Shown here: positions 2,771 through 27,696 of the stretch, in pieces
How the letters are laid out: the number at the start of each line of letters is the position of its first letter
Numbering within the stretch: position 1 is the first letter of the stretch
Assembly (NCBI GenBank): GCA_024408505.1
Contig: JAKSUZ010000010.1
Span: forward strand, 1 to 39,872
Origin: Bacilli bacterium
GTDB lineage: Bacteria; Bacillota_I; Bacilli_A; RFN20; CAG-826
Direction of reading: 5' to 3'
Length of the DNA stretch: 39,872 bases
The notes under the pieces: generated by a model
The model's database searches: none
What the model saw: the letters and a program-made list of their open reading frames with translations, nothing else
Told to the model about the DNA's origin: nothing
Translations under genes and position numbers: made by a program

Positions 2771-4093
2771 TTATATACAGAAGGCTGGAGCAACACCAGC
2801 ACGATTAAGAATGGTTTGCGATGTTTTGATTTCTTTGCTACCAGAAAAAAATGCCACCATTGTGGATTTTGAATAAGGTGAACGAAGCCAATAATGACGT
2901 TCTGTAGGGTAAGGTTCTCCAACAAAGTTTTTCCTTCTTCGCGCGTCTTCCTTCAGTGGGTTTTCATAGAATTTATATATGGTTCCTTCGTTTGGAACAA
3001 CACCCTCTTGACCTGTAGCACCCATTTCTTCGTACGCTAATGGGAAAAGTTTAGGGCACGGGTAATTGGGAGAAAATGCCCTCGCTTCAAAATTGCTTTG
3101 GCCTTCTGTTTTAGATTCATTCACGCCAACTTTCTTATCTGCCGGTTTGATAACTTCCCGTAAATCATGAGGAAGCATACTAATAACGCTTTTTGGATCA
3201 TCTTTGTCATTCAAAATATTATTGAGAAACGAATTACGATATTCAAAATTATTTTGTCTACTTGGCCGCTTGCCATCCCAAATAACTCCGTCTTTATCAG
3301 GACTCCCGCCATCAGATGGCGTGACAATGTTAATAAATTCAAATGTGATTCCAATTAAATCTCCATTAGATGTTGTGTCATGATTAAAATCGATAATTCT
3401 AACAGAGTGTGAAAATATTTGAGGATTAAAGTTGCCAACGTCAAATAATGTTACATCTTTAGTTGCGCCAATCGTAAATAGTTCGCTCGGACTGCCTGTA
3501 ACAGATATGTTTTTAATCGTTTTCCAATCCAGATTATTTAAATCACTTAATGGCAGATTAGAAGAAAGAACATAATAGGCTTCAACAGTGATATCTTCGT
3601 TTAAAACATCATCATAATCGATTGGATTTTCTTTATCTTTATATTCATAATAAGCAAAAGTATAATCCTTTAAAGAAGGCTGTATTGCTTTTAAGTATGG
3701 CAAAAGTTTAGTACCGCCTTTTAGTTCAAAAGAAACTTCAGTGGCACCATGGGCAAAAGTTCCTTGACCAGCATCTAATGTTAAAGTGTAAGATTTAGTG
3801 GGTTCACCACTCCATTTAGCTTGAATAGTAACATCCTCAGTAATAGGTGTTTCATCAAAAACAAATTCTTGATTATCTTTAAACCACCCATCGAAATGAT
3901 AAGAGAAATCTCCTTCTTTTTTTGTTGGATTTTGACTAGGCTTAATCGCAGTCTTACCATTTTCAACTTGCTGAGGCGCAATAAATGAGCCACCAGCTGT
4001 GTCAAAACTAACTGTGTAATATTTAGTGGATCCACAACTCGCTAATAGGGAAATTGCCATGAATGGCATTACTAATAATCCTAGTTTTTTCAT
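2771..4093 (-). CDS. Lipoprotein with InlB-type repeat and C-terminal YWLRSP (DUF6273-like) domain
   Basis: This 440-residue lipoprotein has a signal peptide with lipobox LLASC. Next comes an InlB/Flg_new-type beta-grasp repeat of about 70 residues (FDTAGGSF, then FDGWFKDN, ending TIQAKW). A second, divergent repeat-like stretch starts at LTLDAGQGTF. The C-terminal ~220 residues form the domain shared with the gene at 356, including FEYRNSFLN, MLPHDLREVIKPADKKVGV, PKLFPLA, HYWLRSPYS and APAFCI. GAGG lies 8 bases before the ATG. It appears to be the first gene of a minus-strand run with the next two genes. The InlB repeat is common in exported proteins of gut Bacillota and usually acts as a spacer or binding module. 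The function is unknown; a surface location is well supported. Confidence 0.8.
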   Translation of the reverse strand: MKKLGLLVMPFMAISLLASCGSTKYYTVSFDTAGGSFIAPQQVENGKTAIKPSQNPTKKEGDFSYHFDGWFKDNQEFVFDETPITEDVTIQAKWSGEPTKSYTLTLDAGQGTFAHGATEVSFELKGGTKLLPYLKAIQPSLKDYTFAYYEYKDKENPIDYDDVLNEDITVEAYYVLSSNLPLSDLNNLDWKTIKNISVTGSPSELFTIGATKDVTLFDVGNFNPQIFSHSVRIIDFNHDTTSNGDLIGITFEFINIVTPSDGGSPDKDGVIWDGKRPSRQNNFEYRNSFLNNILNDKDDPKSVISMLPHDLREVIKPADKKVGVNESKTEGQSNFEARAFSPNYPCPKLFPLAYEEMGATGQEGVVPNEGTIYKFYENPLKEDARRRKNFVGEPYPTERHYWLRSPYSKSTMVAFFSGSKEIKTSQTILNRAGVAPAFCI

Positions 4094-4272
4094 ATATGAA
4101 AACCTCTGTCTAAGATTAATTATATATTATCTAAATTATAAGTGCTAAAACTCGTGATATAATGATATAACAATTGTGTCCAACAAATAGGGTTCACCTC
4201 AAAAAATAACAAATTAATATAATGATATATACAAAAAAATAATTTATAATAAATTATTAATTACTACTAAAT
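4094..4272. other. Divergent intergenic region with two copies of a 13-bp AT repeat
   Basis: This 179-base region lies between divergent genes. ATATAATGATATA occurs at 4157-4169 and again at 4217-4229, exactly 60 bases apart. TATAAT at 4245-4250 would give a leader of about 16 bases for the plus-strand glycosyltransferase. No good -35 box is visible. I see no small gene here. Confidence 0.4.
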
Positions 4273-4953
4273 ATGAAAAAGGTATCAATTATAATTCCGT
4301 GTTATAACGAAAAGAACACAATAATCCAATTACTAAAAAAAGTTAAAGATTTAAGTATTAATAAAGAAATTATTGTTGTGGATGATTGTAGTACCGATGG
4401 TTCACGTGAAATATTAAAGGAAAAAGGCGAAAAGATAGCAGATAAGGTTATTTTTCACGAGCATAATCAAAGGAAAGGTGGGGCTTTGCATACAGGGTTT
4501 GCAGCTGCTACAGGAGATATTCTTATTCCGCAAGATGCCGATTTGGAATTAGATCCAAATGATATTGTCAAAGTTGTTGAACCCATTTTAGAAAACAAAG
4601 CTGAAGTTTCGATGGGATCGAGATTTTTAAACACAAAGATGAAAGGATATAAAAGGAATCAATTAGCAAACATTGTATTAACAAAATTTTCTAATATGTG
4701 TACCAAGCAAAAAATAACGGATGTTAATTGTTGCTATATTGCATTTAAACGTAAATATTTACAACAACTTGCATTGAAAGAAAGAGATTTCGCTATTAAT
4801 CCAGAACTAATAGGGCGCATTTCAACTATCGGTCTTAAAATTGTCGAAGTTCCGATTCAATATTTTCCACGCACTTCAGAAGAAGGAAAGAAAGTTAAAT
4901 TTAGAGACGGATTCAAAGCGATACGAGCTATTTGGAAATATAGAGTCAAATAA
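4273..4953 (+). CDS. GT2 glycosyltransferase, polyprenyl-phosphate sugar synthase-like
   Basis: This is a 226-residue GT-A fold glycosyltransferase. The opening KKVSIIIPCYNE, the nucleotide-binding VVDDCSTDGS and the metal-binding QDADLELDP region are typical of the DPM1/GtrB-like branch. That branch moves a sugar from a nucleotide donor to a polyprenyl phosphate on the cytoplasmic face. There is no C-terminal membrane segment, so it resembles the short soluble forms. The convergent neighbour is a GT-C type membrane enzyme, which is just the sort that uses polyprenyl-phosphate sugars, so the two may work as a pair. No Shine-Dalgarno site precedes the ATG. The stop overlaps the convergent gene by 8 bases. 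Confidence 0.82.
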   Translation: MKKVSIIIPCYNEKNTIIQLLKKVKDLSINKEIIVVDDCSTDGSREILKEKGEKIADKVIFHEHNQRKGGALHTGFAAATGDILIPQDADLELDPNDIVKVVEPILENKAEVSMGSRFLNTKMKGYKRNQLANIVLTKFSNMCTKQKITDVNCCYIAFKRKYLQQLALKERDFAINPELIGRISTIGLKIVEVPIQYFPRTSEEGKKVKFRDGFKAIRAIWKYRVK

Positions 4954-6835
4954 TATCGAAGTAGACTTTTGCTGGTTCTATATTTTTATATATATACCAA
5001 TTGCTTGTTCCTTGATTATCTATATTAACTTTTTCTATGTTTTTAATTTTTAAATTTGAAAAAGGCTGATTATCTTCAAAAATAAAATAGTCGATTTTTG
5101 TTTGGGTGGGGTATGGATAAAAATCAAGCGGAGTAACGAACGAAAAATCTGATACAGTGAAATTTTCAGAATACGTGGTCACTACAGCCTCTTCAAAAGC
5201 TTGATTATCCTCAAACACGAAATTAAATACATAGTTGGAATAAGTATCATATGTAAGTAATTTGTGAATATCAGCTCTATTGTTGATGTATAAAATGGTG
5301 CAATTTTTCTTGTCCTTAAAGAATGAATCAATACGTATCGCTTCGTTAACTTCAGATGAATTAGTAAAATATGTAAAATTACTATACCCAACATTAGTTC
5401 GTGCCGCTATCGTTCCAATAATCAATGATATTGATGATAGAGTAATAACAAAAAACAGAAAGGAATGTTTAAAACCTTTTTTATGGAAAGATAAATAATC
5501 CCCTAATAACACAAATCCACATATAAACAAATTAAATATTGACAGCATAACAAAGTATATAGCTTCTGGTAACATCGCATTTTGCATAATAACATCTATA
5601 AATCCATACCATCCTAATGCAAAATAATCCATATAAAGTCTCACACCAGCGCCATGATAAAACGCGGTGAAAAATAAAAAAAGCAACATAACAATTATTG
5701 AAGATTTTTTTGATTGAAAAAGTGATGCATCTTTTGTTCTTTTTGAATAAACAATCAAATATAGCAAAAAGAAGAGAACAAACACTGGGCCATAATACCT
5801 AGTCATGCCTCTATTGTTAATCTTCCATGTTTCCTCTCGCACAGTGATTGTAAAAGAAATGACAGCGGCTAACAAAATTACAAACAATGATATAAGTAAT
5901 AATAATGAACGAGCGTTTTTATCGAGCGTTTTTATTTTATAAAATGGATAAATGATGGGTAAGAATAAAACTGCAAAGCAAACCGCCACGATTGAATAAA
6001 CAAAACCATAAATTAGATAACAAAATTTTGGGAAAGAATTGATTGCATCCCATGTTGATTGATGATGAACATCGGTATAGAAATTAATGCCATTGAACAC
6101 ACCATATTTAATAGAGAAAAACAAAATTAAAAAAGATATCAACGTAATGGAAGTTGATATTATTCTCTCTTTTTTATAAACAATATGACTATTGCATTTT
6201 AAAACTTTATCAATAATTGGGGAAAGAACTTCTAAAAGTACCACAGCAATAATAGCAACTACTCCAACTTCTTTACATAAATAGCATGCATAAATCAAAA
6301 CACCTAATAAGCAAGATAGACAATAATTATGTTTTTTATTGATCAAAATCCATACATAAAATACCCATAATAAGAGTGGATAATACAAAATTTCTGACAT
6401 AAAGGTCAACGAGAAGAGCATGTATGGAAATAATGAATTAATGAGTAAAAGAATGTAACAATATTTGCGACTTAAAAAATTTTTGGCAATAAACCAAAGG
6501 GGGAAAATTGAAGAGGCTAAAATCAAACAGTTAAATGCTGAGATTACATAAACACGCGCCACTTCATTAGTAATAGCAAAAAACGGCGATAAGAGCACAG
6601 AATATAAAATTTTTTGAAATTCAATATCATTTGAAAAGAATTTAATTCCTTGCCCATAAAAAATACTTCTTGCAATATCATAATATAGAATTTCATCTGA
6701 AGTGATGCTTAGACGTTTAATAAAACCAGATAGGGTAAAAAATAATACAAATGTTAGCAAAAAGAAAAAACTGAGTAAAAGCCAATCATCTTTTGATGCA
6801 AACCACTTTTTAATTTTATAGAATAATTTGTCCAT
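4946..6835 (-). CDS. Polytopic membrane protein, probable GT-C type glycosyltransferase
   Basis: This is a 629-residue protein with about a dozen hydrophobic segments, starting with one at residues 18-38. The first outer loop carries an acidic pair in TSDEILYYDIARSI (residues 47-48), in the place where GT-C enzymes of the ArnT/PMT kind keep a catalytic acid. The last ~150 residues are soluble and would face outside. Family members use lipid-phosphate sugars to decorate glycans or lipids. Pairing with the polyprenyl-phosphate sugar synthase-like gene at 4273 fits this. The start codon is ATG; the gene ends in TGA. Its promoter may share the palindrome at 6917 with the exporter genes. The GT-C call comes from topology and one loop motif, so the substrate is unknown. 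Confidence 0.65.
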   Translation of the reverse strand: MDKLFYKIKKWFASKDDWLLLSFFFLLTFVLFFTLSGFIKRLSITSDEILYYDIARSIFYGQGIKFFSNDIEFQKILYSVLLSPFFAITNEVARVYVISAFNCLILASSIFPLWFIAKNFLSRKYCYILLLINSLFPYMLFSLTFMSEILYYPLLLWVFYVWILINKKHNYCLSCLLGVLIYACYLCKEVGVVAIIAVVLLEVLSPIIDKVLKCNSHIVYKKERIISTSITLISFLILFFSIKYGVFNGINFYTDVHHQSTWDAINSFPKFCYLIYGFVYSIVAVCFAVLFLPIIYPFYKIKTLDKNARSLLLLISLFVILLAAVISFTITVREETWKINNRGMTRYYGPVFVLFFLLYLIVYSKRTKDASLFQSKKSSIIVMLLFLFFTAFYHGAGVRLYMDYFALGWYGFIDVIMQNAMLPEAIYFVMLSIFNLFICGFVLLGDYLSFHKKGFKHSFLFFVITLSSISLIIGTIAARTNVGYSNFTYFTNSSEVNEAIRIDSFFKDKKNCTILYINNRADIHKLLTYDTYSNYVFNFVFEDNQAFEEAVVTTYSENFTVSDFSFVTPLDFYPYPTQTKIDYFIFEDNQPFSNLKIKNIEKVNIDNQGTSNWYIYKNIEPAKVYFDII

Positions 6836-6898
6836 TTTTATTTCATAAACATTATATAAAATGAAGTCTTGTCATTCAATATAGAAAAACTTCGCTGG

Positions 6899-6927
6899 TT
6901 GATATGTTTAAATAAATACTCTAAAAT
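6899..6927 (+). promoter_or_regulatory. Promoter for the wzm-wzt operon
   Basis: TTGATA (6899-6904) is separated by 17 bases from TAAAAT (6922-6927), five of six matches for each box. Transcription would start near 6934, leaving a leader of about 10 bases before the ATG at 6944. The -10 box lies inside the 22-bp palindrome. Confidence 0.6.
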
Positions 6928-6938
6928 ATTTTAGAGTA
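6917..6938. promoter_or_regulatory. 22-bp perfect palindrome, candidate operator between divergent genes
   Basis: The half-site TACTCTAAAAT is followed directly by its exact reverse complement. The palindrome covers the -10 and start region of the plus-strand exporter promoter. It also supplies a second TAAAAT on the minus strand (6928-6933). That one sits 17 bases from TTGAAT (minus strand, 6951-6956), so a mirror-image promoter could drive the gene ending at 4946. A repressor bound here could control both directions. Confidence 0.55.
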
Positions 6939-6943
6939 AGTAT

Positions 6944-7768
6944 ATGAATCATTCAATTCGAGAGATATTGGATTATCGTCAAATGATTGTCGGTTTAGTC
7001 CATCGCGATTTAAGAGGGCGATATAGAGGTAGCATACTTGGATTTTTATGGACATTCGTTAATCCTCTTTTACAATTACTCGTTTATACTCTGATATTTG
7101 GTCTATTATTTAATCAAGGTATACCTAAATTCTATTTATATGTATTTGTAGGGTTAATCCCATGGCTATTTTTTTCGGCATGCCTTACCGGCGGATGCTC
7201 TTCGGTTCTTGATCAGCAAGGATTAGTAACTAAAATGTATTTTCCACGTGAAGTGCTGCCGATTTCTTATGTAACGAGTCAATTTTTTAATATGCTTTAT
7301 TGCTTTGTAATCGTTATTGCTGTTTATATATTTGCTTCTTTTACAGCGTTCACAGACAACTTCCAGTGGGTAATTCCTTCTCCTAATTTCTACTTACCTC
7401 TAACATCATTGCCGTTACTATTCATTATTCAATTTTTTATGTGTTTAGGAATGACTTTGTTTACAAGTGCTATCACAGTATATGTTCGCGATGTAAAACA
7501 TATACTTAGTATTATTAGTATGCTATGGATGTTTGCTACTCCACTCATGTGGAAGCTTGAGGGAGACCGCTTTGCTAAGTGGGAGTGGTTATTTATGTAT
7601 GTTAATCCAATGGGCGGATTAATTGATGGATATCATTGTATACTATACGGAGGGACTTGGCCTAATTTTACATACCTGCTCGCATCTACTGGATGGGCAA
7701 TTCTTGCAATGGTTGTTGGCTCACTAGTGTTTAGTAAGGCAAAAAAACGTTTTGCCGAGGAAATGTAA
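6944..7768 (+). CDS. wzm: Polysaccharide ABC exporter, membrane subunit (Wzm/TagG type)
   Basis: This is a 274-residue ABC-2 type permease with six hydrophobic segments. The N-terminal amphipathic start (residues 1-30, RQMIVGLVHRDLRGRYRGS) is the hallmark of O-antigen and teichoic-acid exporters, followed by LGFLWTFVNPLLQLLVYTLIFG. The C-terminal KKRFAEEM is also family-typical. It would move an undecaprenyl-linked glycan across the membrane together with the ATPase that starts 4 bases after it. There is only a weak ribosome site before the ATG, and a palindrome just upstream. The locus contains no Wzx flippase, so export should follow the ABC pathway. Confidence 0.92.
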   Translation: MNHSIREILDYRQMIVGLVHRDLRGRYRGSILGFLWTFVNPLLQLLVYTLIFGLLFNQGIPKFYLYVFVGLIPWLFFSACLTGGCSSVLDQQGLVTKMYFPREVLPISYVTSQFFNMLYCFVIVIAVYIFASFTAFTDNFQWVIPSPNFYLPLTSLPLLFIIQFFMCLGMTLFTSAITVYVRDVKHILSIISMLWMFATPLMWKLEGDRFAKWEWLFMYVNPMGGLIDGYHCILYGGTWPNFTYLLASTGWAILAMVVGSLVFSKAKKRFAEEM

Positions 7769-7772
7769 GTGT

Positions 7773-8588
7773 ATGAAAAGCAAGAATAATGCCATTATAT
7801 CAGCAGAGAACGTTAGCAAGAGTTTTAAAATATATTTTGACAAAGGCTATACTTTAAAAGATAAGTTATTGTTTTGGAGAAGAAATAGACACGAAAAAAG
7901 AGAAGTACTAAATGACATATCGCTAAAAATTAGAAAAGGGGAGTCGATAGGGTTAATTGGGCGCAATGGTTGTGGCAAATCCACAATGCTTAAAATGCTT
8001 ACGCGCATTTACTATCCTAACTCTGGAAAAATTACAGTAAATGGACGGGTTTCATCTTTAATTGAACTAGGTGCAGGTTTTCATCCTGATATGACAGGAA
8101 GAGAGAATATTTATATAAACGCTTCCATTTACGGATTATCAAAAAAAGAAATTGACAAACGGCTCCAAAAAATTATTGATTTTAGTGAGTTAAAAGATTT
8201 TATTGATAATCCTATTAGAACATATTCTTCAGGTATGTATATGAGATTAGCATTTGCTGTGGCGATTAATGTTAATGCTGATATTTTACTAATCGATGAA
8301 ATCCTCGCAGTAGGAGACGCGAACTTTCAAACAAAATGTTTTAATAAACTAAGAGAGCTTAAAAAACAAGGGATAACAATTGTAATAGTCAGTCATAGCA
8401 TGGAATTAATATCAGAATTTTGTGATAGATGCATCTGGATAGAAAAAGGAAAAATTATGGGCGATGGTCCGACCAAAAAGATAAGCAATAAATATTTAGA
8501 ATATATGTCAAAAGAAAGGAATTTCGCATCATTAAACGAACAAGATCGTATTTCTATTATTTCAGAAAAAAACAGAAGGAAAATGTAA
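7773..8588 (+). CDS. wzt: Polysaccharide ABC exporter, ATP-binding subunit (Wzt/TagH type)
   Basis: This 271-residue ATPase has Walker A GRNGCGKST (residues 63-71), signature YSSGM (151-155), Walker B ILLIDE (171-176) and H-loop His208. The extra IELGAGFHPDMTGREN block marks the glycan-export subfamily. I chose the ATG at 7773, which has GAGGAAA about 10 bases upstream. A TTG 21 bases earlier would overlap the permease. The usual glycan-recognition domain of long Wzt proteins is absent, and only ~40 residues follow the H-loop region. It is therefore the short TagH-like type, which should not select chains by a terminal cap. It is coupled to the next gene, which starts one base after its stop. 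Confidence 0.92.
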   Translation: MKSKNNAIISAENVSKSFKIYFDKGYTLKDKLLFWRRNRHEKREVLNDISLKIRKGESIGLIGRNGCGKSTMLKMLTRIYYPNSGKITVNGRVSSLIELGAGFHPDMTGRENIYINASIYGLSKKEIDKRLQKIIDFSELKDFIDNPIRTYSSGMYMRLAFAVAINVNADILLIDEILAVGDANFQTKCFNKLRELKKQGITIVIVSHSMELISEFCDRCIWIEKGKIMGDGPTKKISNKYLEYMSKERNFASLNEQDRISIISEKNRRKM

Positions 8589-8589
8589 T

Positions 8590-10875
8590 ATGCCAAACAC
8601 TGAAGAAAAAAGACGTTTAATAATGCGGACAAAAGAAGAGTTATATAATAACGGCATCTTTAAAACTATTAAAAAGATTTTTAATTATTTGCTAGCGCAC
8701 TACAAAATTTCAAAATCTAACCGTGAGTATACAAATATTTTTGCCGATGTTTTATTCATCAATGGATGCTCTCTACCGCATCCATCTAGATACCGTGTAT
8801 CACATCAACGCGAACAATTAGAGTTTTGTGGCATTTCTACTCAAGAAGTTTTTTATACAAATTTAACAATTGACCAAGCGGAAAAGTTCAGATGTTTTAT
8901 ATTTTTCCGTTGCCCTTGCACTGAAGTGGTGGAAAAGTTCATAAAAAAAGCTAAATCATTAAATAAAGTAGTTTATTTTGATATTGACGATTTATTGTTC
9001 GACATTAAATACACAAAAACAATTAGTTATATTGATACAATGGATGAGAATCATAAAAAAATGTATTACAGCGGAATACAATTAACACAAAAAACTTTGA
9101 GTTTATGCGATGGAGCTATAACTTCCACTAATAAACTAAAAACCGAACTACAAAAATATGTAAAAAACGTATTTGTAAATAAAAATGTCGCATCGGAAAA
9201 AATGCTTCAAATTTCTAAAAACGCTATTTACTGCAATGATTTAGGTGTGAGTTTAGATAGTAAAAATAATGCTTACGTATATAAAAAATATATTAAGATT
9301 GCCAAAAAAATTAGGAAAAAGAAAGGACAATATTTTTATATTGGATACTTTTCAGGAAGCATAACTCACAATGATGATTTAGAGATGATATCTGAAGATT
9401 TGGCAAAAGTAATGCAAGTTCATGCACAAGTTAGATTATGCATAGTCGGAATGGTTGATTTACCAAAAAATCTATTGAAATATGACGATAGAATAATTAG
9501 ATTCCCATTTTCCGATTGGCGAGAATTACCTTTTTATATTTCTAATGTTGATTTAAATATCATACCTCTCGTAGATACAACATTTAATCAAGCAAAATCC
9601 GAAAATAAATGGATGGAAGCATCACTAGTAAAGGTTCCTAGTATTGCCTCTAATGTCGGCGCTTTGAAAGAAACAATAATTAACAATCAAACAGGTATTT
9701 TATGCAGAAACGAAAAAAATGCTTGGTTTAACGCCATAGACACCTTGATTGGAAACCCTGATAGTTGCCAAAAATTGGCCACAAATGCATATAACTATGT
9801 CATGAAAAATTACACTACACTGAAATCTAGTCACAAATTTGGTAGTTATATCAAAAGTATAATGAAACAAAATTTTGTAATGGTGTTGCCAAGTGCTCTT
9901 ATGTCAGGAGGCGCTCTTGTTGCCTTGAAACACTGTCACTGTTTAAAAGAAAATGGTATCGATGTTTCAATTGTTGTTGATCAATCTAAACCATTAAAAA
10001 ATATAACTTATATGGGGCATGCCTTCCCAACTTTTGTAACTCGCACAACTAAATTTATTGCTAATATAGATGATGCTTGCGCAACTTTATGGACAACCAT
10101 TAATTGGCTAAATAATTGTAAAAAAATTAAACGAAAACATTATCTAGTACAAAATTTTGAGCCTGATTTTTATAATTTCTGTAACCCTAACCGTGCAGCA
10201 GCAAACGCAACTTATTTCTTGGATAATTTCGATTACATTACAATTTCAAAATGGTGCGCATCATGGTTGCAAGAAACTTATGGAATAAAGCCTAAATACA
10301 TACCAAATGGAATTGAAGAAAAATTATTTTTAGCGCCAAAAATTAGAAATTTTAATAAAAACGAAAAAATTAAAATATTGATTGAAGGATCATGTGACGA
10401 CTACTATAAAAATGTAGACGAGGCTTTTAGAATTGCTAATAAATTAGATCGGAATAAATACGAAATTTGGTATATGAATTATAGAGGTACCACTAAAAAG
10501 TGGTATCATATTGACAATTTTTTGCCCAGAATTTCGTTCGACTCTGTAAATCAAATATACAAAAAGTGCCACATATTATTAAAAACTAGTATCCTAGAAA
10601 GTTTTAGTTATCCACCTTTGGAAATGATGGCGACTGGTGGTTTTTGTGTTATAAGAAAAAACGAAGGCAATATTGAATATTTAAAAAACAAATACAATTG
10701 TCTAACATATGATGAAAATGATTTATCAACTGCTATAATTGCAATTGAAAAAATTGTTAATGATGCTTCACTAAGAAAAAGGTTATACAAAAATGGCATT
10801 CAAACCGCGCGCGAACGAAGTTGGAAGAACTATAGCAGAAATATTATAAAAGCCTATTCGACTATCACAAAATAG
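8590..10875 (+). CDS. Two-module GT4-type glycosyltransferase (C-terminal WsaF-like)
   Basis: This 761-residue protein contains two GT-B modules. The first spans about residues 45-420. It begins VLFINGCSLPHPSRYRV, contains FDIDDLLFD, and ends with the donor-site-like stretch NKWMEASLVKVPSIASN. The second spans about 430-755. It starts MVLPSALMSGGALVALKHC, carries HYLVQNFEPDFY as in WsaF-type rhamnosyltransferases, and ends with ILESFSYPPLEMMATGG, the E-x7-E type donor motif of GT4 enzymes. AAGGAAAA precedes the ATG. Such tandem enzymes often add two successive sugars to one lipid-linked chain. It follows the exporter genes in the same operon and overlaps the convergent gene by 11 bases at the stops. 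Rhamnose as donor is only a guess. Confidence 0.82.
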   Translation: MPNTEEKRRLIMRTKEELYNNGIFKTIKKIFNYLLAHYKISKSNREYTNIFADVLFINGCSLPHPSRYRVSHQREQLEFCGISTQEVFYTNLTIDQAEKFRCFIFFRCPCTEVVEKFIKKAKSLNKVVYFDIDDLLFDIKYTKTISYIDTMDENHKKMYYSGIQLTQKTLSLCDGAITSTNKLKTELQKYVKNVFVNKNVASEKMLQISKNAIYCNDLGVSLDSKNNAYVYKKYIKIAKKIRKKKGQYFYIGYFSGSITHNDDLEMISEDLAKVMQVHAQVRLCIVGMVDLPKNLLKYDDRIIRFPFSDWRELPFYISNVDLNIIPLVDTTFNQAKSENKWMEASLVKVPSIASNVGALKETIINNQTGILCRNEKNAWFNAIDTLIGNPDSCQKLATNAYNYVMKNYTTLKSSHKFGSYIKSIMKQNFVMVLPSALMSGGALVALKHCHCLKENGIDVSIVVDQSKPLKNITYMGHAFPTFVTRTTKFIANIDDACATLWTTINWLNNCKKIKRKHYLVQNFEPDFYNFCNPNRAAANATYFLDNFDYITISKWCASWLQETYGIKPKYIPNGIEEKLFLAPKIRNFNKNEKIKILIEGSCDDYYKNVDEAFRIANKLDRNKYEIWYMNYRGTTKKWYHIDNFLPRISFDSVNQIYKKCHILLKTSILESFSYPPLEMMATGGFCVIRKNEGNIEYLKNKYNCLTYDENDLSTAIIAIEKIVNDASLRKRLYKNGIQTARERSWKNYSRNIIKAYSTITK

Positions 10876-11686
10876 TGTTTTTGCGTGCTTCAACAAACAT
10901 TAACGGAATACACCAGAACCAACAATTATATAAAGAATATAATGTAATGAATTTAAAGATATCTTTATGGTATAACCATACTTTTCTTAATCTACCATTA
11001 ACAATATCTTTTTTATAAAACACTCTAGCATCATGCTTTTGGATACTTAAACGATTTTTAACTGCTTTATAGCTATGCTTCTCCTTAGAGAAGAAATGCT
11101 GCACTAATTCAGCATCAATTGTTTCAGTTTTAATTCCTGCGTTAGTAGCCCTAAAGCAAATATCAATATCAACATAGTCCATAAATAAATTCTCATCGAA
11201 TAAACCAATCTGTTTAAACAACTTAGCAGAATATAGTGAACATGAATTAATTCCTAACAAATATCCTTCTGCGTGTTCCCCATTCTTTGTAGGTTTAACT
11301 TTATATTTTGAAACATCGATGATATGTTTAGGACCATATCTACGGTAACGATATTTAAAGATTGATAAATAATAAAGATAATCGCCGCTTTTTGTTAAGC
11401 GATTTACCTCAGAGAAATACCTTTCTGATATTTCGGTATCATCATCCATAATTGATAACCAATCACCATCTTTCAAATATTTCTTAATAACATAGTTATA
11501 CGCTTTAGGAAGCCCAATATTCTTTTTTACTGTTTCATAATAAAAACCATTATCTTTACAATATTTTTCATTTTTATTTCTAATAGCCTCATCAGTAGAG
11601 TTATCAAATACAACTTGTTTAAAATCACTACCAAGTTTAGTTAGATTAATCTCGTGATTATATGCTACTACTAGAACGTAAATCAT
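10865..11686 (-). CDS. GT2 glycosyltransferase (rhamnosyltransferase-like)
   Basis: This is a 273-residue GT-A enzyme. It has the opening VLVVAYNHE, donor-binding FDNSTDE, the metal-binding IMDDDTE and the acceptor-side FDENLFMDYVDIDICFRA, which matches the WbbL/RfbN branch (F-D-E-x-F-x-D-x-D). A hydrophobic C-terminal stretch (LYNCWFWCIPLMFVEA) probably docks it to the membrane. Its ATG overlaps the stop of the upstream GT2 gene by four bases (ATGA), so the two are translationally coupled. It ends in TGA inside the end of the convergent 761-aa gene. Confidence 0.83.
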   Translation of the reverse strand: MIYVLVVAYNHEINLTKLGSDFKQVVFDNSTDEAIRNKNEKYCKDNGFYYETVKKNIGLPKAYNYVIKKYLKDGDWLSIMDDDTEISERYFSEVNRLTKSGDYLYYLSIFKYRYRRYGPKHIIDVSKYKVKPTKNGEHAEGYLLGINSCSLYSAKLFKQIGLFDENLFMDYVDIDICFRATNAGIKTETIDAELVQHFFSKEKHSYKAVKNRLSIQKHDARVFYKKDIVNGRLRKVWLYHKDIFKFITLYSLYNCWFWCIPLMFVEARKNTIL

Positions 11687-12552
11687 CTACTGCCCCTTTT
11701 CATTGCTATATATCTAATCATCATATTGAATGGCCATCTAATAACGGTAATAAGATCAAAATGCTTTAATGCTTCTTTAAGAATATAGAACGCAAGCTTC
11801 TTACCACTACTATTTTTATTATATTTATCAAAAATCCCTACCATTTTAAAGAATCTACCAGCATCATAATATCTTTTATATAGTTTCTTTGCTGGTAATG
11901 AATGGTAATGCTCAATTACTGCATCTGCGCAGTATTTAGCCTTATAACCATTTGTTAACAATGAATGCATATAAAGCATATCTTCATTAGTAGGAAGTTT
12001 TAATCCTTGATAACCACCAAGTTTAATAAAAGTTTTTCGATCTACTCCCGCAAAGACATCGCTAGCGAAAAATGCTTTGATTTGGCATTTTTCTATTTTG
12101 TCTTTACTAGCAATATAACTAGCTTTTGGATAGTTAAATTCACGGACATAATGTTCGATATTTCTTTTTGAACAAGTCTGATGACCGAAAGTATAAACAA
12201 CTTCACCACTAGCGATATCTTTAACAAGGTTATACATTGAATTGGAATAGGTTAATTTAATATCTTGTGTTAATAAAATAACAATATCGCTTTTACAATA
12301 TTCAGTAATTGCTTTTTCTCTTATTAAACTATGACAAAAATCTTTCTTCAAAACTTCAAAATAGATCGCACTTTGCTCTTTGCATAGTTCCTTAGTTTTA
12401 TTCGCATTGTTAGCATCATCACCAATTGTAATTGGCACGACAATATTAACAATTTGAATATTTTCTTGTTTTTTAAAAGATTCAAATAAGGATTTTAATT
12501 CACTATATCCGTCTAGTACTGGTATTACTAAATCTACTTTTATTAAAGACAT
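11683..12552 (-). CDS. GT2 glycosyltransferase
   Basis: This is a 289-residue GT-A enzyme. It has the opening VDLVIPVLDG, the aspartate motif LLTQDIKLTYS and an acceptor-side block LPTNEDMLYMHSLLTNGY followed by a conserved EHYHSLPAKKLYKRYYDAGRF. Such enzymes are usually annotated as rhamnosyltransferases of O-antigen or wall-glycan loci. I chose the ATG at 12552; a TTG three codons earlier is possible. The ribosome site is weak. It is the first gene of a two-gene minus-strand unit with the next GT2. It faces away from the epimerase gene across a region with a 12-bp inverted repeat. Confidence 0.82.
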   Translation of the reverse strand: MSLIKVDLVIPVLDGYSELKSLFESFKKQENIQIVNIVVPITIGDDANNANKTKELCKEQSAIYFEVLKKDFCHSLIREKAITEYCKSDIVILLTQDIKLTYSNSMYNLVKDIASGEVVYTFGHQTCSKRNIEHYVREFNYPKASYIASKDKIEKCQIKAFFASDVFAGVDRKTFIKLGGYQGLKLPTNEDMLYMHSLLTNGYKAKYCADAVIEHYHSLPAKKLYKRYYDAGRFFKMVGIFDKYNKNSSGKKLAFYILKEALKHFDLITVIRWPFNMMIRYIAMKRGSR

Positions 12553-12581
12553 ATTGCCCAATATTTATTATATATGTTTTA

Positions 12582-12628
12582 TTATCTAATAAAACAAATT
12601 ACTTAATAGAAATGGATTTATTAGATAA
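12582..12628. promoter_or_regulatory. Perfect 12-bp inverted repeat in the GT2/SDR divergent region
   Basis: TTATCTAATAAA (12582-12593) is matched by its exact reverse complement TTTATTAGATAA (12617-12628), 23 bases apart. Each arm also contains a small dyad (TTAT-N3-ATAA), so this could be two facing operator sites about 36 bases centre to centre. There is no T-run, and converging genes are not involved, so it is not a terminator. The binding protein is unknown. Confidence 0.45.
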
Positions 12629-12688
12629 AGTATAAATTATATTTATGAAATGAAATTATAATGTTTTTTAGGATAAAATATTTAATAT

Positions 12689-13609
12689 ATGGTTTTTTTA
12701 GTTCTTGGTGGTTCAGGGTTTATTGGCTCTAATTTTATATATGAACTTTTAAAACACAGACATAAGATTATTGTTTTCGATAAAAACATCGCAACTATAA
12801 AACACGAGCATTTACACTATGTAAAAGGAAATATACATCCGTCTATTTGCCTAAAGAATCTAATTAAAAAATCAGATATTATAGTTCATGCTTTTTCATC
12901 AATTAATCCTACCACCAGCATTAAACAGTATAAAAAAGGGTACTTATTTGATATAAAAACTAGTGTAGAAATTTTTAACCTTGCAGCAAAATTAAAGAGA
13001 AGGGTCATATATCTATCTAGTGGAGGAACTGTGTATGGTGAACAAAAAACATACCCAGTATCAGAAACAACTTCTTTTGGACATCTAACTAATCATTATG
13101 CAATTGTTAAGGCCACAATTGATAGAACTGCAATTATGTTTAAGGAAAAGCAAGGCGCAGATATATTGATTGCAAGAATTTCTAATCCATTTGGAGGATA
13201 TCTGAACTGCACTAGTGGAGCCGGTTTCATTGACGTTGCTATCAAAAGAGCTGTTTCCAAGTTACCTATCATAGTGTATGGCGATGGTAACACTATAAGA
13301 GATTACATTGATGTCAAAGATGTTTGTGCGCTTTTGTATAAAATGTCTATGTATAAAGGCAAAAAATATATTTTCAATATATCGTCAGGATACGGAACAA
13401 CGCAAAACGAAATAATAAAAATTATCCGTGACAACATCAAAAATGTAAGTGTAAATCATCTTCCGTTTCGATCTATTGATTTAAAATGTTCAATTCTTGA
13501 TAACACCCTCATTAAAAAAGTTTTTAGTTATCATCCATCAAAAATTGATTCCTTAGTTATATCGCGCATAAAACAATTAAAAGCGAATGAAGTAAAATAC
13601 AGTGATTAA
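12689..13609 (+). CDS. NAD-dependent epimerase/dehydratase (extended SDR family)
   Basis: This is a 306-residue Rossmann enzyme. GGSGFIG (residues 7-13) binds the dinucleotide. SSGGTVYGE and the catalytic pair Tyr137/Lys141 (HYAIVK) are the active site, and RISNPFGG and YIDVKDV complete a GalE-like pattern. It probably interconverts or dehydrates a nucleotide-sugar used by the surrounding glycosyltransferases. The substrate cannot be told from sequence alone. The ATG has no Shine-Dalgarno site. TAAAAT ends 9 bases upstream, so the leader may be only a few bases. Another gene with the same orientation follows after 48 bases. Confidence 0.88.
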   Translation: MVFLVLGGSGFIGSNFIYELLKHRHKIIVFDKNIATIKHEHLHYVKGNIHPSICLKNLIKKSDIIVHAFSSINPTTSIKQYKKGYLFDIKTSVEIFNLAAKLKRRVIYLSSGGTVYGEQKTYPVSETTSFGHLTNHYAIVKATIDRTAIMFKEKQGADILIARISNPFGGYLNCTSGAGFIDVAIKRAVSKLPIIVYGDGNTIRDYIDVKDVCALLYKMSMYKGKKYIFNISSGYGTTQNEIIKIIRDNIKNVSVNHLPFRSIDLKCSILDNTLIKKVFSYHPSKIDSLVISRIKQLKANEVKYSD

Positions 13610-13622
13610 CACCACAAGTAAG

Positions 13623-13659
13623 TTGCAGGCAAAATCAAAAATACTTAATATTTAAGTAT
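13623..13659 (+). promoter_or_regulatory. Possible promoter and dyad at the start of the 975-aa gene
   Basis: TTGCAG (13623-13628), a 17-base spacer and TAATAT (13646-13651) end only 6 bases before the ATG. The arms ATACTTAA and TTAAGTAT (13641-13659, 3-base centre) form a dyad across the -10 and the first bases of the start codon. Both boxes are weak matches, so this call is tentative. Confidence 0.35.
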
Positions 13660-16585
13660 GTACGAAAACATAGGCATAAAAAATGCCTTAAGAACATCGA
13701 TTTATGCATTTCGGATATGGAAAAACAAAAAACTATTCCATAATAAAGATAGATTTTTTAGAAACAACCATAGTTTTTGGTTAGCCTATGAACGTGGATT
13801 TAGACATTCCTTGGAGGTATTATTTTTTCAATTTCGTTTTAAAAAAAGAATTTATAAAAGAAATGGCGGATTCCCTACTTACAAAAATTTTGACATATTA
13901 CTACACGAAACTATTAAAAATGGCGGTAGTATTTTAAATCACGCGAACGCGATAAGTGATAAATTCGCTTTATTAATTAGTCATGAATTATCCTTTACTG
14001 GCGCTCCATTCGTGCTTCTACATACAGCAGCTGCTTTAAAAGAATTAGGAGTTACTCCTGTGATTGTATCTCCCTCCAACGGGCCCTTAGTAAATGAAGC
14101 AAAAAAACTGAATATAACAGTTATTCTTTATAGAGACATATATAGCAATGATTATATTGTTTCGATGGCGTCATTTTTCGATTTTGTTATCGTAAATACG
14201 ATTGTGTGTTCACGCTTAATTCAAAAATTCAATTATACAAATATACCGATAATGTGGTGGATACACGAAGCAAAGGAGTCATACATTTATGACAAGGCTA
14301 ATATGCCAACTCGTATTTCATCAAACATTAAGGTTTATGCAGGCGGACAATACGCACTAAAATTAATTAAAAAATATAGACCCAATTATCCTGTTAAGGA
14401 ACTTCTTTACTACAGCCCTGAATGTAACAAGTTTTCAAACATCGATTTTATTGAAGAAAAAATGCATGGTAAAAAAATCTTTGCTTGTATCGGCACTCTT
14501 TCTAAACGAAAAGGGCAGCTACTTTTATTAGATGCTATCCTACATCTAAGAAAGCAGACTTTTAACAAAAGTCTGTTCATTTTTGTTGGCGAAAATTGTG
14601 ATTTACCTACGTTCACTAAATTATCAGAACTAACTAAGAAATATCCTAATAATTTTGTTTATTTACAAAGGCTGCCGCCAAGCAAATTAGCATCAATATA
14701 TAAAAAGATGGATGCACTAATATGCCCATCTTTAGACGATCCTATGCCAATGGTTGTAGCGGCTGCTCTCTCATTAAATAAACATGTCATTTCTTCTAGC
14801 AACACTGGATTCGCTTCTTTATTACTTCAACATAAGTGTGGTGCTGTTTTTAAGAGTGGAAACAGGAAAGAATTAATTTCTTGCATCGAAGACGCATTTA
14901 GCAAAACAAACAATTCTTCTAAAGCAGGATTATTAATTTATAGGCGACATTTTGCTAAATCAATTTTCTTACGCAATATCGCAAATATTTACTTTTTTCT
15001 TGCAAAATCTTCGCAGAATTCAATGAAAAGATTTATCAATTCTTTGCCTTCGGAATATTTAAATCAAATTAATTTACGTCAAATGTTCAAATTTAATAGA
15101 CGAGATTCCATTTTATTAATTAATCCTAATAGTCAAAAAATATTAAATAAATCCTTGAAGTTAACTAAAAAATATAATGTATTAATTGGTTTAACAGACA
15201 ATTTTAAACTAGATGGCGATATCGATTTACCAATTATTCATTTTAATAAACAAACTGATATAAAGCCCTTTTCCTTTAATATGTTTAAAAAGGTAATCAT
15301 AGACAAGATTCCCAGTGAAACATACTTTGGCATCTTAAAGAACAGTTACAACCTATCATTTATTGAATCAAATCGTACTTTAGATTGTATTGAAAGAAAA
15401 AGCGTTTCTGTGGTAATTCCAACTTATAATCCCGGGCCAGAATTATTTAAAAGTATTGCATTAATAAATTCTCAAAAAAAGATTAAACATATTGAAATAA
15501 TTCTTGTCGATTCTGGAAGCAATCCACAATTAATTAAAAAAATGAAATCTTACCCAAACGTATATCTTTATAGTATTTTGCATGATAAATTTTCTCATTC
15601 TTATTCACGAAATTTTGGTATAAGCAAGGCTCGATACTGTAATGTTGTTTTTATGACTCAAGATGCTATTCCGACTAGCAAAACATGCTTTTATAACTTA
15701 ATTAAACCCTTAATTCTAAATAAAGCAGTAGCGTCATCCTGTCGTGAAAAAAATCCACCTAAAATAGATCCATATTACGGATTAATGTCAAAGAGTTTTA
15801 CTAAATTCATCAATTATGGTCATAAGCCAATTCGAAGTTATCAATACGACCATCTTAAAGAAGTTTCAAATCTCTCTAACGTTTGTTGCGCAGTTAGACA
15901 TGATATCTTGGAAAATTATCCTTATCGTTTCAATTACGGAGAAGATTTTGACTTAGGTATACGCTTGATTTTAAACAATTATAAGTTAGCGTTTATTAAT
16001 TCCTGCGCGGTATTACATGGTCATAATAGGGATGCCTTATACTATTTTAAAAGAGAAATTGTTGAATCAGCATTTAGCAGTAATTTATTTTCAACTGTCT
16101 ATCAAAAAAAGAATTTTTTACTGTTAAAAAATAAGATAAAGTCTATTGCTATAGATTATGCGTTTATTAATTATTGGTTATCGTTAATTTTAAAGAATAA
16201 TTATATTGTCAGTTACCGAACTTTTTTAAAATGTTCAAAAACATCTTTTGACAAAATTGTTATGTCAAAATCGAGAAAATTCACCAATAAGATTTATAAT
16301 TTTGAAAATGATAAGGTTCACAAAATTGTTTCTAGACTCAATAATTCTCTAACCTCTAATTTGCCATACGATTATTCATACTCAAATGTCTATAATTTTA
16401 GGAGCTATATATATGAAAATGTTATTGAATATATGCAAAAACATCATATCGCTTTTTCAAAGCAGTTGATTATCAAAGTATTGTATAAGAAAATCGTTGC
16501 GGTAACTGGATCTACATTAGGCGCTTTATTCGATTATCATTTGGTGAAGAAAATTATTACTGAGGAAATCGATTTAAATGTATAG
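13658..16585 (+). CDS. Fused glycosyltransferase: GT4 module plus GT2 module
   Basis: This is a 975-residue protein. Residues ~100-450 form a GT-B (GT4) enzyme: SHELSFTGAPFVLLHTAAAL acceptor-side start, CIGTLSKRKGQLLLLDA, and DALICPSLDDPMPMVVAAAL as the donor-site motif. Residues ~585-830 form a GT-A (GT2) enzyme: SVSVVIPTYNPGPELF, ILVDSGSN, FMTQDAIPTS and YGEDFDLGIRL. About 90 residues precede the GT4 part and ~140 follow the GT2 part. The two folds probably add consecutive sugars during assembly of the repeat. No ribosome site precedes the ATG. There is no sign of a frameshift in the long frame. Sugar specificity is unknown. Confidence 0.85.
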   Translation: MYENIGIKNALRTSIYAFRIWKNKKLFHNKDRFFRNNHSFWLAYERGFRHSLEVLFFQFRFKKRIYKRNGGFPTYKNFDILLHETIKNGGSILNHANAISDKFALLISHELSFTGAPFVLLHTAAALKELGVTPVIVSPSNGPLVNEAKKLNITVILYRDIYSNDYIVSMASFFDFVIVNTIVCSRLIQKFNYTNIPIMWWIHEAKESYIYDKANMPTRISSNIKVYAGGQYALKLIKKYRPNYPVKELLYYSPECNKFSNIDFIEEKMHGKKIFACIGTLSKRKGQLLLLDAILHLRKQTFNKSLFIFVGENCDLPTFTKLSELTKKYPNNFVYLQRLPPSKLASIYKKMDALICPSLDDPMPMVVAAALSLNKHVISSSNTGFASLLLQHKCGAVFKSGNRKELISCIEDAFSKTNNSSKAGLLIYRRHFAKSIFLRNIANIYFFLAKSSQNSMKRFINSLPSEYLNQINLRQMFKFNRRDSILLINPNSQKILNKSLKLTKKYNVLIGLTDNFKLDGDIDLPIIHFNKQTDIKPFSFNMFKKVIIDKIPSETYFGILKNSYNLSFIESNRTLDCIERKSVSVVIPTYNPGPELFKSIALINSQKKIKHIEIILVDSGSNPQLIKKMKSYPNVYLYSILHDKFSHSYSRNFGISKARYCNVVFMTQDAIPTSKTCFYNLIKPLILNKAVASSCREKNPPKIDPYYGLMSKSFTKFINYGHKPIRSYQYDHLKEVSNLSNVCCAVRHDILENYPYRFNYGEDFDLGIRLILNNYKLAFINSCAVLHGHNRDALYYFKREIVESAFSSNLFSTVYQKKNFLLLKNKIKSIAIDYAFINYWLSLILKNNYIVSYRTFLKCSKTSFDKIVMSKSRKFTNKIYNFENDKVHKIVSRLNNSLTSNLPYDYSYSNVYNFRSYIYENVIEYMQKHHIAFSKQLIIKVLYKKIVAVTGSTLGALFDYHLVKKIITEEIDLNV

Positions 16586-23913: not shown

Positions 23914-24204
23914 TTAAGCAACGGAAACAGCCTTAATTGTTATAAGTTCTTTAGCTATTTCTTTTTTAATATTACGACGATCTATTTCATTTTGAATGTT
24001 GATAAAAAACATATCAGAAATATGGAAAAAAGCGCCTAATCTAATAGATGTATCCATAGTAATTGCTCTCCGATTATGAAGAATGTCTTGAATGCGTGAA
24101 GTAGGAACATTGATTGCTTTTGCTAGAGCATAAGCAGAAAGATTCATGGGTTTCATAAATTCCTCCATAAGAATCTCACTAACTTTCGGTGTAGGTATGT
24201 TCAT
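23914..24204 (-). CDS. higA: HigA-type antitoxin (XRE helix-turn-helix)
   Basis: This is a 96-residue DNA-binding antitoxin. Residues ~20-75 form an XRE helix-turn-helix (SAYALAKAINVPTSRIQDIL, then ITMDTSIRLGAFF), typical of the HigA/VapI group. It should bind and block the toxin encoded 10 bases upstream and repress the shared promoter. It has a good AGGAG site 7 bases before the ATG, while the toxin gene appears leaderless. That difference could help keep antitoxin in excess. The gene order is toxin first, as usual for HigBA. Confidence 0.93.
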   Translation of the reverse strand: MNIPTPKVSEILMEEFMKPMNLSAYALAKAINVPTSRIQDILHNRRAITMDTSIRLGAFFHISDMFFINIQNEIDRRNIKKEIAKELITIKAVSVA

Positions 24205-24214
24205 AATTTTCTCC

Positions 24215-24502
24215 TTAGTGATAATCCACTATCTCAACATTAGCGTAATCAGAGCCGTTATTTTTAGGAACGAAACAAATTCGCCACTGTTGATTTATTC
24301 TAATGCTATATTGTCCAGAACGATTATTCTTCAATTTCTCCAAATGATTAGCTGGAGGAACTTTAAGATCGTTTAATGAACAAGCTGCATTAAGCATAAT
24401 TAGCTTACGTAAGGCGACTTTTTGAATACCAATAGGAAGTTTCCTTGAAAATTCCTGATTGTATATTTTTTCTGTCTCCTTATCTTTAAAACTAATTATC
24501 AT
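24215..24502 (-). CDS. higB: HigB-type toxin (RelE/ParE superfamily mRNA interferase)
   Basis: This is a 95-residue toxin. The beta-rich C-terminus has YSIRINQQWRICF, the signature of HigB toxins, plus an upstream ALRKLIMLNAA helix and HLEKLKNNR. HigB cleaves translated mRNA on the ribosome. It is the first gene of the pair; higA follows 10 bases later. A near-perfect promoter ends 6 bases before the ATG, so the mRNA is probably leaderless. The frame is intact and length is normal, so the module looks functional. Confidence 0.93.
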   Translation of the reverse strand: MIISFKDKETEKIYNQEFSRKLPIGIQKVALRKLIMLNAACSLNDLKVPPANHLEKLKNNRSGQYSIRINQQWRICFVPKNNGSDYANVEIVDYH

Positions 24503-27117: not shown

Positions 27118-27696
27118 TTACACTCTTTCGATATCTGCGAAGTCAACATCAGTTGGAGTTGAGCGACCGAAGAATGTAGTCTCAATGCGACATACACCAG
27201 TAGTCTTATCAATGGAGATAATCTTACCTTCTGAACCCGCTAATGGACCATTAATAACTCTAACTAGATCACCAACGTTATAACGTGAGTACATTGTGTT
27301 ATCTACTCGACCCATACGTTTTAACACTGGTTCCATTTCTTCACGAGAAACTGGGTTCGGCTTTTGACCGCCACCGCTAGAACCGGCAATACCAGTAACA
27401 CCTGGGGTGTTACGAACGATATACCAAGAATCTTCTGTCATAATCATCTCGACGAAGATATAACCTGGATATAAATTCTTCTTTTTAAATTTTGGTTTAC
27501 CATCTTTACCGACTTTTTGTAAACCGGTCTTCTTATCTTTTTCTGGTTCATCTTGTTCCGCCACAATAACATCGAAAATTACTGAACCTAAATTAAGTGA
27601 TTCAACGGTACGACGTAAATTCTCTGCGACTTTATTTTCGTGACCAGAATAAGTATTAACAATGTACCATTGTCTTGTTTCGTTAATGTTATCCAT
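27118..27696 (-). CDS. nusG: Transcription elongation/termination factor NusG
   Basis: This is a 192-residue factor that binds RNA polymerase and couples transcription with translation or pausing. The NGN domain has WYIVNTYSGHENKVAENL and LYPGYIFVEM, then SWYIVRNTPGVTGI. The KOW domain has GDLVRVINGPLAGSEGKI and ends FGRSTPTDVDF. Between the first two NGN blocks is a lysine-rich stretch of about 20 residues (DKKTGLQKVGKDGKPKFKKK), a moderate insertion seen in some Bacillota. The gene starts three bases after secE and is followed by a strong terminator. Confidence 0.97.
   Translation of the reverse strand: MDNINETRQWYIVNTYSGHENKVAENLRRTVESLNLGSVIFDVIVAEQDEPEKDKKTGLQKVGKDGKPKFKKKNLYPGYIFVEMIMTEDSWYIVRNTPGVTGIAGSSGGGQKPNPVSREEMEPVLKRMGRVDNTMYSRYNVGDLVRVINGPLAGSEGKIISIDKTTGVCRIETTFFGRSTPTDVDFADIERV

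Follow-up and report, generated by a model that had tools for sequence, protein, structure and literature searches.

A perfect 22-bp palindrome, TACTCTAAAATATTTTAGAGTA, was found at positions 6917-6938 of the window (the whole stretch of 39,872 nucleotides that was analysed), just before the start of a glycan exporter operon. It probably serves that one operon as an ordinary regulatory site and is not a shared two-way promoter. Our best explanation, which we hold tentatively and with somewhat less than even confidence, is that the palindrome is a site of dyad symmetry that controls the wzm-wzt exporter promoter alone and is bound by a dimeric protein. A dimeric DNA-binding protein of the bacterium would most likely sit on the palindrome, covering the -10 box and the predicted transcription start, which would lie near the ATG, and exporter transcription would presumably be blocked while the protein is bound. 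The divergent membrane-protein gene would fire from its own promoter, about 70 bp away. If the site is an operator, it offers a simple handle on the control of surface-glycan export in an uncultured gut lineage of Bacilli.

The window corresponds to contig 2 of a source genome that comprises 1.23 Mb in 53 contigs and is 87% complete. The Tgt protein of this genome shares 91-96% identity with those of three 'Bacilli bacterium' MAGs from horse faeces and a Bacillales MAG, and 76% with that of Candidatus Fiminaster equi. In the mechanical gene calls, the palindrome covers the ribosome-binding region of wzm (6944-7768, plus strand), ending 5 nt before its ATG; this gene encodes a wzm/TarG-type ABC-2 glycan exporter permease (PF01061; best PDB sequence match, TarG). 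The gene is overlapped by wzt (7752-8588, plus strand), a wzt/TagH-type exporter ATPase (PF00005) that starts with TTG and has the TagH-type model as its best NCBIfam match, at a score under that model's cut-off. A two-domain glycosyltransferase (8590-10875, plus strand; PF00534/PF13692) follows the exporter. No relatives of wzm were found in the named genome collections, and plasmid records gave no match. The divergent gene (4946-6835, minus strand) encodes a 629-aa protein that had been described as a GT-C glycosyltransferase. Its 13 hydrophobic segments give a multi-span topology that is compatible with a GT-C protein without proving it, and the family search, which returned no match at all, brought no confirmation.

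The sequence features from which the original prediction started were confirmed. The stretch 6917-6938 is identical to its own reverse complement, and each strand carries a TAAAAT lying 17 bp from a TTGA-type -35 box, TTGATA on the plus strand and TTGAAT on the minus strand. For the plus strand, a promoter scan gave a candidate -35 TTGATA (6899-6904), a 17-bp spacer and, within the left arm and 22 nt upstream of the ATG of wzm, a candidate -10 TAAAAT (6922-6927); together these match 10 of 12 consensus positions. The -10 scored 5.8 bits in a model derived from 119 further intergenic starts in this genome (consensus TA(T/A)AAT). The modelled -10 boxes lie mostly 10-24 nt before the ATG, so that most transcripts of this genome would seem to have very short leaders. 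Because the match reaches 10/12 and the -10 at -22 falls within the preferred zone, a plus-strand exporter promoter is plausible on sequence grounds. The same model, whose peak lies at -24 to -10, predicts a -10/+1 region that the dyad overlaps; a dyad-symmetric sequence over the candidate -10/start region, as expected of an operator, is present in the form of the palindrome.

For conservation, the palindrome was searched at up to 3 mismatches. It proved unique in its own genome and was absent from 57 relatives, except for one match in G048, a genome of the same order, which appears to be coding sequence. The family contains seven close wzm genes, the window's own included. Five of the orthologues (53-55% identical) closely follow another gene, and their upstream sequences lack such a repeat. 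The remaining one belongs to the congener G001; it is 72% identical, is the only congener orthologue that close, and has an intergenic upstream region. There, TTCTAAAA-TTTG-TTTTAGAA ends 10 nt before the wzm ATG. The core of the window palindrome (TCTAAAA-TA-TTTTAGA, 6920-6935) and that of the congener (TCTAAAA-TTTG-TTTTAGA) have identical 7-bp arms separated by 2 bp and 4 bp, respectively, and one outer pair has gone from C.G to T.A with both sides changed. With the dyad carried by two genomes only, this covariation comes down to one pair. The rest of the upstream region is barely alignable between the two genomes, and the neighbouring gene is different. Thus, exact or near copies of the palindrome were not conserved in relatives, and a shorter dyad was kept before wzm of the congener.

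The pattern TCTAAAA-N(0-8)-TTTTAGA had no non-coding occurrence beyond the wzm sites in G000, G001 and G002, where the other matches lay within ORFs, and no site at all in G003 and G004. Since the wzm sites are the only non-coding ones among the genus genomes searched, the dyad has probably been maintained, as judged from a sample of two genomes. From the density in G001 (3 sites in 1.3 Mb), the probability of one site within 60 nt before wzm is p ~1e-4 by our own estimate, for a pattern picked after it had been seen. Side by side, the two loci keep the exporter pair and differ in their glycan genes; the congener (L012:5166-8144) has a WbsX/RgpF-type glycosyltransferase gene after the exporter, where the window has a GT4-type gene.

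The dyad symmetry retained in G001 makes a dimeric regulator of the exporter possible, whereas the proposal of promoters shared with the divergent gene found no support. A close known parallel is AcrR at the acrA/acrR promoter, where the operator of a dimeric repressor overlaps the core promoter (PMC12825309). Like AcrR-type operators, the wzm dyad spans the -10/start region of a promoter for an exporter; it differs in being a single copy to which no regulator could be linked, and in the spacer change between species. An excess of start-proximal inverted repeats, divergent regions included, is as expected of operators, which in general would enrich dyads near promoters.

Several results count against an operator. 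Many dimeric regulators would not accept arms spaced by 2 bp in one species and 4 bp in the other. The site is a single copy, with no regulon and no regulator gene linked to it. A chance level of about one such palindrome per genome and five distant orthologues without the dyad weigh in the same direction. A search of the genome for the half-site near other glycan genes had been suggested, and it uncovered no glycan regulon. Outside the palindrome, the genome holds three copies of the half-site: one at the beginning of a uvrA-like coding sequence, a second within a different coding sequence, and a third immediately ahead of a putative membrane protein. Searches with the half-site and with the dyad core gave no sign of a regulon in the window's own genome or across 224 family genomes, and a control pattern, the dyad core read backwards, also yielded matches. 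The inspected dyad-core matches of the genus were coding sequence, except for the wzm sites.

An RNA hairpin is an alternative that we consider unlikely, although parts of the evidence agree with it. Here, a wzm transcript starting from the left arm or before it would form a stem-loop that restricts the access of ribosomes or makes the 5' end more stable. The hairpin would have a 9-bp stem and a 4-nt loop and would end 5 nt before the AUG. The loop would measure 4 nt in both species despite the spacer change, with stems of 9 bp and 8 bp, and the isolated window hairpin folds at -8.4 kcal/mol (z = -3.85). In G001, a strong extended -10, TATG-T-TATAAT (9.7 bits), abuts the inverted repeat and would place the RNA start at the first base of the repeat. 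By inspection, TATG-T-TTAAAT of the window (6903-6913, plus strand) is apparently its homologous counterpart, with the TATG at a similar distance to the core (17 nt in the window, 18 nt in G001). Initiation at this upstream start would make the repeat either a 5' hairpin or an operator at +1, whereas initiation from the TAAAAT box would exclude the left arm from the transcript. However, the homologous -10 of the window is degraded (TTAAAT, 2.05 bits), and its better -10 would begin the RNA past the left arm. The G001 hairpin is also weak (-4.2 kcal/mol, z = -1.15) and is beaten by another fold in a longer fragment, and no Rfam leader or riboswitch matched up to E = 1 in 4000-14000. The unchanged 4-nt loop speaks for RNA; due to the weak fold in G001 and the overlap with the core promoter, we lean towards the DNA operator over the hairpin.

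Neutral coincidence, in which an AT-rich palindrome arose by chance around a -10 box, is in our judgement also improbable. No copies of the palindrome at up to 3 mismatches appeared across 100 dinucleotide shuffles. Any perfect palindrome with arms of at least 11 occurred in 2.7-3.3% of Markov-simulated windows of the same composition, which scales to about one per genome; for this reason, the palindrome on its own is weak evidence, and the lack of the exact sequence in relatives also agrees with coincidence. Against it, the shared arms of the congener occupy the corresponding position upstream of its own wzm, one pair having changed on both sides, and the remaining matches in those genomes are coding sequence. 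Among 121 sampled intergenic start regions of the genome, the arms of the wzm palindrome were the longest.

The original prediction was of mirror-image promoters, in which a polymerase-sized element fires wzm to the right and the divergent gene to the left, switched by polymerase competition or a shared regulator. This reading is very unlikely. Bidirectional promoters are defined by divergent starts 7-25 bp apart (PMC10268837, which cites Warman et al. 2021 on such promoters), and the commonest start spacing is 18 bp, with 10 and 23 bp also found (PMC12825309). At the wzm site, the minus strand carries TTGAAT (6956-6951), a 17-bp spacer and TAAAAT (6933-6928), a promoter-like sequence spanning 6928-6956 that matches 9 of 12 positions and has its -35 within the wzm coding sequence. 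The predicted starts, near 6934 (plus) and 6921 (minus), diverge and are 13 bp apart. Symmetric -10s on both strands, each with TTGA at 17 bp, and a predicted spacing within the defining range are the points of likeness. At the background TTGA frequency of 0.006 per position, the probability of finding TTGA exactly 17 bp away on both strands would be ~4e-5 if independent, an estimate that applies to a feature chosen post hoc and to a pairing without conservation. Overall, promoter-like pairs were not enriched in the AT-rich window (48 found, against 56.6 +/- 7.0 in shuffles).

Unlike those of such promoters, the -10 hexamers of the wzm site abut and do not overlap, and 13 bp is none of the common spacings. 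The divergent gene also has a separate and better promoter-like sequence of its own, TTGAAT-17-TATAAT (6879-6851, minus strand; 10/12), whose -10 lies 21 nt before its ATG, the usual distance in this genome; at -21 it scored 8.5 bits, whereas the minus hexamer of the palindrome, at -98, reached 5.8 bits. The mirror half was not conserved either. A usable -10 on both strands, as a bidirectional promoter would be expected to keep in relatives, was not found in G001, where the minus hexamer is TAAAAC. Neither -35 box is present there, as no sequence at 15-19 bp from the dyad hexamer matched above 2/6 on either strand. The gene upstream of wzm in G001 is a co-directional CotH-domain gene, and no homologue of the divergent gene was found in G001 or the other congeners examined; the dyad is therefore retained where there is nothing to share. 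No relatives with the gene order of the window were found. Taken together, a mirror-promoter switch is unlikely. As a separate observation, the minus strand carries two copies of ATTGAATGA, 77 bp apart: the copy at 6872-6880 is the -35 region of the separate promoter-like sequence of the divergent gene, and the copy at 6949-6957 is that of the palindrome's mirror sequence.

Two further candidates were rejected: an intrinsic terminator, since the terminator scan lists none at the palindrome, and control by LoaP or another NusG paralogue, since the single NusG-domain hit of the 87% complete genome is of the housekeeping type (87 bits in the LoaP model, cut-off 125). LoaP is a specialised NusG paralogue with RNA-hairpin targets upstream of biosynthetic operons. 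The wzm site resembles these targets in that its sequence could form a hairpin ahead of a polysaccharide-type operon, likewise in a genome of the Bacilli; it differs in that only the housekeeping NusG was found. This protein, encoded at 27118-27696 on the minus strand, scored best on a Mycoplasma-type NusG model and carries a lysine-rich insert within its N-terminal domain. Also on the minus strand, at 23914-24502, a gene for a HigB-like toxin precedes a small HTH_3 gene; the two, likely a type II toxin-antitoxin pair, lie inside a metabolic region.

Beyond wzm, start-proximal inverted repeats were in excess in the genome. For the background statistics, stretches totalling 360 kb of the window's own genome and 41 stretches from G001 were used. 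Repeats with arms of at least 9 within the 40 nt that precede intergenic starts numbered 8, against 0.9 in dinucleotide shuffles (about nine times), and the excess was replicated in the congener G001. It also held in divergent regions (4 against 0.4 in G000, 9 against 0.4 in G001), which are informative because the terminator of an upstream gene is not expected there. In a comparison of 23 upstream regions between G000 and G001, with orthologues taken by best tblastn hit and not reciprocally, two regions besides wzm kept arms of at least 9 in both genomes with changed spacers, and in one a 14-bp palindrome with TATAAT inside it was retained. Of the start-proximal repeats in the sample, that of wzm is the strongest. 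A Shine-Dalgarno-like motif was present at only 43 of the 121 intergenic starts (window, L014, L110-L125); together with the -10 peak 10-24 nt before the ATG, this suggests that near-leaderless transcripts are common in the lineage.

A genus-wide extension is quite doubtful in our estimation: very short leaders would be the norm, and AT-rich start-proximal dyads with arms of at least 9, at about one in ten intergenic starts and with some arms kept while spacers drift, would form a general control layer acting by DNA symmetry or 5' RNA hairpins. The repeat excess and the -10 boxes near start codons yield testable guidelines for recognising promoters in this lineage, which has no cultured model. 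Other AT-rich inverted repeats with arms of 10 were noted in the window (4238-4258 and 12575-12596), L117 (4338-4358) and L123 (861-881); they lie 15-32 nt from start codons, and several are centred on a TATAAT-like box.
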